From: Intestinibacillus massiliensis
Lineage (GTDB): Bacteria > Bacillota > Clostridia > Oscillospirales > Butyricicoccaceae
Direction of reading: 5' to 3'
Assembly (NCBI GenBank): GCA_029267335.1
Contig: JAJUJC010000002.1
Location: 186,001 to 250,000, forward strand
DNA length: 64,000 bases
This document shows positions 3,738 to 46,409 of the stretch, in pieces. The first letter of the stretch is position 1; each line of letters begins with the position of its first letter. A program made the translations under genes and the position numbers. The notes under the pieces are model-generated. The model was not told the DNA's origin. It saw only the letters and a list, made by a program, of their open reading frames with translations, and made no database searches.

Positions 3738-3750
3738 GAAACCATAGACA

Positions 3751-3863
3751 AAGCCCCCGCGACTGACGGACAAGGTGGATAAACCACCGGGGAACGAGGG
3801 CTTCTTTTATGCCGACCGTCTGGGCAGTGTCGCGATTTTGTCGTGGCGCTGCCCTTTTGTTTT
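3751..3863 (+). ncRNA. ZTP riboswitch (pfl motif) with transcription-termination platform
   Basis: The leader matches the two-domain ZTP/pfl aptamer. P1 is AAGCCC (3751-3756) with GGGCTT (3798-3803). Conserved CGCGACTGACGG follows, then the hairpin GGTGG-ATAAA-CCACC (3774-3788), GGGGAACGAG, and the terminal signature GCCGACCGTCTGGGCA (3811-3826). The class binds ZMP/ZTP, purine intermediates that accumulate when 10-formyl-tetrahydrofolate is short, and usually turns genes on. The last aptamer bases (GGGCA) are also the 5' arm of a terminator, so ligand binding should prevent termination. Placement before pflB fits the motif's original name and links formate production to one-carbon status. 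Confidence 0.9.
3822..3863 (+). terminator. Riboswitch-controlled terminator with competing antiterminator
   Basis: GGGCAGTGTCGCGA (3822-3835) pairs along its full 14 bp with TCGTGGCGCTGCCC (3841-3854), allowing G-U pairs, with a TTTTG loop and the run TTTTGTTTT (3855-3863). An alternative hairpin pairs GCGCTGCC plus TTTTG (3846-3859, one bulged C) with CAAAAGGCAGCGC (3867-3879). It would break the terminator's 3' arm. The two hairpins and the folded aptamer are mutually exclusive. Confidence 0.85.
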
Positions 3864-45928: not shown

Positions 45929-45990
45929 AAAGGTGGAGGCAGCGAGCGCAAGCAATGAAAAAAGCACCTGTCGTTTGACAAGTGCTTTGT
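45929..45990. repeat. 62-bp direct repeat, copy A (contains tRNA-type terminator)
   Basis: Identical over 62 bp to 46195-46256. The central part reads as a minus-strand terminator, AAGCACTTGTC / GACAGGTGCTT followed by T. A GC-rich tail with GCGCTCGC-like repeats extends to the left. Confidence 0.85.
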
Positions 45991-46074
45991 GCGAGCGCGA
46001 GCGAGCCGCCGCCCCTGCGACGTGCGACTTCCGGACGATTCATTCGTCCGGAAGTATTAAATTCTCACGGATTC

Positions 46075-46115
46075 CAAAAGAAAAGAACCAATCTTGTGAT
46101 TGGTTCTTTTCTTTT
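46075..46115. terminator. Hairpin next to the tRNA remnant
   Basis: AAAAGAAAAGAACCAATC pairs with GATTGGTTCTTTTCTTTT around a short loop. It would terminate transcription in either direction and follows the tRNA-like remnant read on the minus strand. Confidence 0.75.
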
Positions 46116-46144
46116 GGAGCGGCTGACGAGGCTCGAACTCGCTA
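46114..46144 (-). pseudogene. Duplicated 3' end of tRNA-Gly (T arm, acceptor and CCA)
   Basis: The 31 bp match exactly 46260-46290, which is the T arm, acceptor 3' strand and CCA of the intact tRNA-Gly. The 5' half of the tRNA is missing; instead a hairpin CCCCGTGAAAG/CTTTCACGGGG (near 46150-46177) precedes it. This may be a tRNA remnant or an attachment-site duplication left by an integrated element. Confidence 0.75.
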
Positions 46145-46194
46145 TCACACCCCGTGAAAGACGAGCTTTCACGGGGACCCCACCTCGATTATAA

Positions 46195-46256
46195 AAAGGT
46201 GGAGGCAGCGAGCGCAAGCAATGAAAAAAGCACCTGTCGTTTGACAAGTGCTTTGT
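46195..46256. repeat. 62-bp direct repeat, copy B (terminator of tRNA-Gly)
   Basis: Same 62 bp as 45929-45990, offset 266 bp. Read on the minus strand it begins 4 bp after the tRNA CCA end and forms the tRNA terminator hairpin AAGCACTTGTC/GACAGGTGCTT plus T6. Confidence 0.88.
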
Positions 46257-46260
46257 TTCT

Positions 46261-46336
46261 TGGAGCGGCTGACGAGGCTCGAACTCGCTACCTCCACCTT
46301 GGCAAGGTGGCGCTCTACCAGATGAGCTACAGCCGC
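46261..46336 (-). tRNA. tRNA-Gly (anticodon GCC)
   Basis: The cloverleaf reads on the minus strand from 46336: acceptor GCGGCTG/CAGCCGC, D arm with AGCTCATCTGGTAGAGC, anticodon stem CCACC/GGTGG enclosing TT-GCC-AA, T arm GAGGTAGCGAGTTCGAGCCTC-like region, then T and an encoded CCA (46261-46263). Its promoter is TTGACG-17-TATAAT (46381-46409) and its terminator is the 62-bp repeat. A perfect inverted repeat TTGACA-n5-TGTCAA (46356-46372) lies in its 5' leader. Confidence 0.97.
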
Positions 46337-46380
46337 ATATTTTGTTTTTGTTTTGTTGACATGTCGTGTCAACGTTGATT

Positions 46381-46409
46381 ATTATATCAACTCATTCACG
46401 TTTCGTCAA
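46381..46409 (-). promoter_or_regulatory. Promoter for tRNA-Gly
   Basis: Minus-strand TTGACG (46404-46409), 17 bp spacer, TATAAT (46381-46386), about 45 bp before the mature tRNA 5' end. Confidence 0.75.

Follow-up and report, generated by a model that had tools for sequence, protein, structure and literature searches.

Copies of a putative short non-coding mobile element beside a tRNA-Gly gene of Intestinibacillus massiliensis

Introduction

What has placed a second copy of a tRNA end, together with a pair of longer repeats, behind an intact tRNA-Gly gene? The question arises in Intestinibacillus massiliensis (Oscillospirales, Butyricicoccaceae), in a stretch of 64,000 nucleotides (contig JAJUJC010000002.1, positions 186,001 to 250,000) called here the window. 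A sequence-only reading had proposed two origins for the arrangement, an attachment site left by an integrative element or the decay of a tandem tRNA array. Integrases do usually target the ends of genes and tRNAs, and an integrase attachment site is specific to one integrase, which the element encodes.

We argue here that the copied tRNA-Gly end was probably made by a small non-coding mobile element that copies the end of its target gene. This element often carries, again probably, a reversed copy of its own landing site. Comparison of the sequences leads us to give a probability of about 0.62 to the reading that the window locus carries copies belonging to a family of short mobile elements of Oscillospirales, non-coding and RNA-like, characterized by long target duplications and a target-derived inverted segment.

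Results

The tRNA-Gly locus

The T arm, acceptor strand and CCA of tRNA-Gly are repeated in a 31-bp exact copy (30 tRNA bases and one outside base) 146 bp downstream of the original, at 46114-46144 against 46260-46290. The two copies of the 62-bp repeat are 100% identical and lie at an offset of 266 (Table 1). On these points, as on the integrity of the tRNA gene, the sequence-only reading was exact, and the terminator that it placed behind the copied end is a 21-bp perfect hairpin at 46073-46118. Two features had escaped it: the 62-bp repeat is in part an inverted copy of tRNA-Gly itself (83% match), and a further structured hairpin, P3, lies between the copies. Along the tRNA strand, the order is tRNA, T1, segment A, the AATC-GAGGT block, P3, S' and the second terminator hairpin.

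In Rfam searches of the window, only tRNA and a distant riboswitch reached the gathering score; the low-threshold matches, tRNA aside, all lay below gathering scores. The riboswitch, of the ZMP/ZTP type, is at 3749-3832 on the plus strand (RF01750, 66.3 bits).

Table 1. Features of the tRNA-Gly region, in window coordinates
Feature	Position	Strand	Remark
tRNA-Gly(GCC)	46261..46336	minus	intact; its 3' part (S) is the duplicated target
T1, intrinsic-terminator-like hairpin	46224..46254	minus	directly behind tRNA-Gly
Segment A (CTCGCTGCCTCCACC)	46198..46212	minus	antisense to the anticodon-stem 3' strand, variable loop and T-stem 5' strand of the tRNA (inverted copy)
Segment A, looser inverted match to the tRNA	46196-46219		
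AATC-GAGGT block of the core	46178..46192	minus	
Hairpin P3 of the core	46150..46176	minus	conserved by compensatory change
S', displaced copy of the tRNA 3' end (T arm, acceptor strand, CCA)	46115..46143	minus	
T2, hairpin able to act as second terminator	46069..46118	plus	on the plus strand resembles the end hairpin of a putative second element, E2 (by eye, from likeness to L101, L104, L141 and L302)
Part of putative E2: ATTCA-loop hairpin, then GTATTAAATTCTCAC	46028..46068	plus	likeness judged by eye
Putative extent of E2, bounded by the left 62-bp copy and by S'	45991..46118	plus	128 bp, which with 138 bp makes the offset of 266
62-bp repeat, left copy	45929..45990		T1 and A from a truncated unit; interpreted as what remains of the target duplication of E2
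62-bp repeat, right copy	46195..46256		T1 and A of the complete unit

The module recurs behind tRNA-Gly genes

A search of the same genome for the 62-bp repeat revealed a third copy, aligned over 59 of the 62 positions with 97% identity. It follows the second tRNA-Gly(GCC) gene, which belongs to an Asp-Phe-Gly cluster and bears the same module. Of the 46 tRNA matches in the genome, 38 were inspected, including one that the script could not read; among these 38, a partial copy of a tRNA's own 3' region is found, besides the two tRNA-Gly(GCC), only at tRNA-Val. Downstream of this tRNA-Val(TAC), at locus L024, the whole tRNA-Val and its terminator are present again as a decayed tandem copy. This is ordinary tRNA duplication followed by decay, unlike the Gly module.

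To follow the module in other genomes, we used two covariance models, the first (R1) built from 12 copies and the second from 85; R1 matches below about 45 bits are mostly the tRNA itself. With the second model, the module is present in 12 of the 87 genomes of the window's family (E 1e-10); for a sister family the figure is 46 of 400 (E 1e-12). A model of the core gave two matches at E 1e-7 in 206 genomes of the class, both in the window's order. A strict pattern matched 51 stretches in one-per-species genomes, in which A is fixed by construction since the pattern demands it. Many of these stretches are labelled Oscillospiraceae, Agathobaculum, Pseudoflavonifractor, Oscillibacter, Flavonifractor or Evtepia; the remaining ones bear only the labels Clostridiales, Eubacteriales or Clostridia, plus one Merdimonas. 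The comparison of related genomes that had been suggested thus uncovers a structured module in many of them, and this recurrence excludes chance as the origin of the window repeats.

After removal of duplicates and of two tRNA rows (L118, L119), 88 modules were retained. Seventy-four of them are placed behind a tRNA and in every case this is tRNA-Gly(GCC); the other 14 have no upstream tRNA on the fetched stretch. At L111 the module stands without tRNA despite long upstream DNA, a situation that would arise if it had outlived its tRNA gene. Relatives also display tandem and truncated units, each tandem unit holding the tRNA 3' end. The last unit of an array is often truncated, breaking off inside A or immediately behind it (L055, L069, L105, L109, L115, L116, L183, L216). 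In one lineage (L114-L117), A and the core are present and the acceptor copy is absent. At L077 (38 bits) the module is genuine, though expanded by roughly 100-150 bp in the P3 region. At L079, L091 and L092, which have no module, another repeat follows the tRNA-Gly terminator, with a GAGGCTCGAAAGGGCG-like stretch, then GATTAGGCCGACT and, further on, GGAGC.

Decay of a tandem tRNA-Gly array, the second of the two origins proposed, would account for the direct 3' copy, and the decayed tRNA-Val copy gives it a precedent in the same genome. We find it scarcely credible. Only the 3' part of the module copies the tRNA directly, so that the similarity does not run over the whole tRNA: in several families the 5' part is replaced by the antisense segment and a conserved core, which decay fails to explain, as it does the same layout at protein genes described below.

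Segment A and S' follow the host tRNA

In 60 of the 74 modules, the acceptor strand, discriminator and CCA of the copy are those of the host tRNA itself; the acceptor strand alone matches in 6 more and neither does in 8, one of which is cut by a contig end. When A is located by its best match to the tRNA, its inner 16 positions are complementary to that of the host in 63-66 of 66 modules, of which 36 were fetched by the pattern; the fairer count, without these, is 27-30 of 30. The match survives changes of the tRNA. In G395 a GGTCG stem in the tRNA is answered by CGACC in A, both differing from the rest together while the neighbouring G of A is unchanged, and in G722 a T stem GCGGG faces CCCGC in A.

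Moreover, the target itself can change. In G742 the module lies behind tRNA-Thr(GGT), and A and S' both copy tRNA-Thr; further Thr versions, in G550 and G438, each match their own T stem. A Thr-type array whose tRNA is absent from the locus read occurs in G465, and the G332 version is cut by a contig end. Modules at tRNA-Phe, in G001, G455 and G003, have a similar layout around another core. The tRNA-Phe modules of L067/L006, L193 and L225 contain a different two-hairpin core, with a GGAATCGAA-like stretch inverted to the T loop on the left and a copy of the tRNA-Phe 3' end on the right. Wherever inverted ends were found, they equal the target and change with it, unlike the terminal inverted repeats of MITEs.

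The sequence-only reading had held that repeats at many tRNAs without any element would point to simple duplication. The stretches examined, which were fetched mainly for Gly modules, do not bear this out, with repeats at other tRNAs in 0/22 for Asp, 0/20 for Cys, 4/36 for Phe, 1/17 for Val and 1/3 for Thr(GGT).

The tRNA-sense strand seems constrained as RNA

In a model-fitted alignment, P3 is paired in 97.9% of cells, with two-sided changes in 9 of its 11 pairs, and P1, P2 and P3 together in 97.5%, against 33-49% when the pairing is slid. The cells paired, the cells changed on both sides and the covariation score were above all 500 shuffles. Two measures were not beyond the shuffles, namely how many pairs show two-sided change (152 of 500 shuffles) and how many further pair types occur (41 of 500), and P1 and P2 show no two-sided change in this alignment. 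RNAalifold, applied to a MAFFT alignment of 50 cores, recovered the same P3 hairpin with 9 of 11 pairs compensated. On the tRNA-sense strand of the model-fitted alignment, G-U outnumbers A-C by 73:1 in P3, 39:1 in P2 and 20:4 in P1, other mismatches being 18, 6 and 15, respectively; for P3 the MAFFT alignment gives 41:2. In 61 of 70 distinct P3 sequences the sense strand gives the better fold. All these sequences are related to one another, so that the counts are not independent tests. Since P3 pairing is kept by two-sided changes and G-U is far above A-C, it is the RNA of the tRNA-sense strand that seems, from these alignments, to be constrained.

Palindromes are also subject to pure DNA processes, cruciform formation and quasi-palindrome correction. 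As the sole cause of the perfect hairpins they were rejected, the one-strand excess of G-U over A-C speaking against them. Such processes may nevertheless contribute to the continued match of A.

In several operons the module lies between tRNA-Gly and tRNA-Cys with no T1 visible, and it should therefore be transcribed there. We folded 56 tRNA-plus-module transcripts in which the module is at most 75 bases from the tRNA. In 55 of them, pairing of A with the tRNA 3' half gives a lower energy than pairing with S' (means -124.7 vs -117.9 kcal/mol), and in 51 this fold is also the free minimum. Three structures were inspected, and in each S' joins the tRNA 5' half to complete a second tRNA-like fold.

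These folds call to mind a functional RNA switch: in read-through RNA, A would pair with either S' or the tRNA's own 3' half, and the tRNA 5' half would fold with S or S' in an exchange of 3' halves that tunes tRNA folding or processing. The energies agree with such a device, as do the paired change of tRNA stem and A in G395, the strand bias towards G-U and the modules of tRNA operons. The exchange between the two folds is a computed possibility, however, and the tRNA, being made first, may not refold. We judge the switch unlikely as an explanation of the module, because the same architecture at unrelated protein-gene ends needs no tRNA, the L114-L117 lineage does without the acceptor copy and most genomes do without the module.

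Two other RNA candidates were set aside. Excision of the unit as an intron, between the tRNA 5' half and S', has only the folding in its favour, and a T-box, considered for GGTGG-like strings, had no Rfam match. At 12 module loci Rfam returned only tRNA, with no intron or T-box match.

The same layout at the ends of protein genes

The core-only model (R3) also matched places without tRNA genes. There, a gene end including the stop codon (X) is followed by a spacer, sometimes A, hairpins, AAATC or a similar sequence, a GGGG/CCCC hairpin and a second copy, X'. The GGGG/CCCC hairpin is the last part of the element and abuts the second target copy. Flanking duplication was found at 15 of 29 core-model match positions and was missing at 14. 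R3 also matches plain GGGG/CCCC hairpins, and in family f19 seems to do so often. Duplication was seen at 29 of at most 290 positions drawn at random from these loci, whose repeats were included. Eight further copies, found through internal similarity in one genus, are all flanked by duplicated target (controls, 0 of 63 windows). Three of these eight, apparently at the same target gene, include what looks by eye like a gene start on the opposite strand. Target duplications measure about 19-106 bp, the tandem copy L286 aside.

At protein genes too, A matches the target in some copies. In six clear cases it spans the left border of X, from -5 to +5, -6 to +5, -6 to +7, -12 to +6 and, twice, -5 to +9. 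A match of at least 9 nt occurs in 8 of 20 protein-gene copies, against 14 of 1200 null windows; the best A match of a copy exceeds all of that copy's 60 null windows in 9 of the 20 and is reached by some of them in 11. For whole protein-gene elements the sense strand bias is weak (13 of 18).

The targets are diverse. Their best NCBIfam matches include aspartate--tRNA ligase, IMP dehydrogenase, NusA, TrmL and IF-2, of which only IF-2 passes the curated cut-off, the other targets being gene fragments on the fetched stretches. Between X and X' we counted 19 synonymous and 12 non-synonymous differences over 13 rows (two of which, L294 and L308, are the same locus), 8 of the 12 falling in one locus. 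Core features, namely AATC, the GGGG/CCCC hairpin and the ATTCA hairpin, are common to unrelated targets and families.

These shared features weigh on two further explanations. Without any mobile element, replication slippage with template switching at hairpins could have duplicated sequence locally; this would fit the tandem and truncated units with their inverted and direct copies, and the tandem repeats of a tRNA 3' end at E. coli tyrV offer a parallel. Slippage brings no foreign sequence, however, and the common core makes it quite unlikely. A remnant integrase site, attL or attR, of a genomic island or phage would leave the gene intact at a usual type of target, as is seen here. Yet the inserts are 100-200 bp long, too small for an integrase, and share a core, and related cores flank copies of many unrelated targets. 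Two strict patterns had no match in viral contigs. We regard such a remnant as highly improbable, and the integrative element first proposed gives way to a non-coding structured repeat of that size.

Filled and empty sites

In one genus, a gene ending in LKAYFEKKYL (LKEYFEKKYL in one case) carries the element and the duplication in 7 of 20 genomes; 8 are empty, with a single gene end and other sequence directly after it, and 5 were not classed. The second copy is visibly changed in two of the 7 filled sites. In the empty sites of G166 and G789, the right flank is that found after X' in G284, at 81% and 78% identity. As far as genome comparison goes, this pair of filled and empty sites is the main evidence for insertion. 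It also makes a duplication left by an inserted element the better of the two ideas advanced by the sequence-only reading.

A putative second element in the window

The 62-bp repeat probably marks a second copy of the element, E2, in the opposite orientation. The plus strand of 46028-46118 resembles the protein-gene elements, by eye, in its ATTCA-loop hairpin, AAATTC stretch and end hairpin, which could also act as the second terminator. An E2 lying at about 45991-46118 and duplicating 46119-46256 would make the left copy end at 45990 and the right one at 46256, with the offset of 266 that is seen; of the left target copy, just the final 62 bp would then remain. Reversed elements of this kind are also seen, again by eye, behind or next to the tRNA modules of L049, L101, L104, L111, L141 and L114-L117. 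The E2 window folds slightly better on the other strand (-70.4 vs -66.6), and no convincing A was seen in E2.

Discussion

A mobile element that copies its target on both sides would account for these observations along the following lines. Copying would begin at the junction on which A is centred, from a template that could be RNA or a single strand with a recognized 3' hairpin, in a manner like target-primed synthesis. A strand switch at the same junction would leave A, and a staggered second cut would give rise to the long duplication. Because the target is then present on both sides of the element, the gene stays intact; in the tRNA-Gly version, the duplicated target is the tRNA 3' end. 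Recombination between the direct copies would add tandem units and could also lose or truncate them. In the window, a second, opposite insertion, E2, would have produced the 62-bp repeats.

The tRNA modules are alike within genera and the tRNA is broken at the same place, by eye, and they look inherited rather than freshly inserted. A single insertion also leaves the long-lasting match between A and the tRNA unexplained. A more elaborate form of the mobile-element reading, which we hold to be doubtful, is a self-guided non-coding mobile RNA: A would be an antisense guide spanning the insertion junction, rewritten at every insertion and kept complementary, while the gene-end copy keeps the host gene whole. 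If this were true, the transcript of the tRNA gene could fold the tRNA with either of two 3' halves.

MITEs are short, have no open reading frame of their own and generate target duplications of about 2-10 bp. The elements described here are likewise short, lack a reading frame and duplicate their target, and they depart from MITEs in the length of their duplications and in inverted ends that derive from the target, not from the element. Group II introns and non-LTR elements combine structured RNA and a defined 3' end with variable target duplication and junction complementarity. Our elements echo these target-primed retroelements on all four counts, being RNA-like in structure; an RNA element is suggested here only by the G-U strand bias, with no Rfam intron match at the 12 tRNA-module loci.

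Two groups of bacterial repeats are also comparable. The 178-bp repeats of E. coli tyrT/tyrV (rttR/rtT region) reproduce the 19-nt 3' end of tRNA-Tyr three times downstream of tyrV, at 178-bp spacing. They share with the relatives studied here tandem units that each hold a tRNA 3' end; unlike the tRNA modules with A, the longest inverted tRNA match downstream of tyrV is 10 nt, with no clear A. Relatives of rtT have been reported inside BIME repeats (PMC2965389). The bcr1-bcr18 elements of the Bacillus cereus group are short intergenic repeats, some MITE-like and some with conserved RNA structure, about half of them transcribed; the sections consulted of their description mention neither a long target duplication nor a target-derived inverted segment, both present here (PMC3446304). 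A further bacterial type, the REP/RAYT repeats, is characterized by a short tag at the foot of the hairpin and by a RAYT transposase. We found no description of such an element in the open-access literature.

The duplicated gene ends seen beside tRNAs need not be integrase sites. If the mobile-element reading is true, common gut bacteria would harbour mobile elements that need no gene of their own and that target the ends of essential genes: among the loci read, tRNA-Gly and genes matching aspartate--tRNA ligase, NusA, IF-2 and IMP dehydrogenase. The landing site would often be recorded as an antisense segment. The natural filled and empty sites make the copying of a target on both strands by a non-coding structured sequence directly testable.
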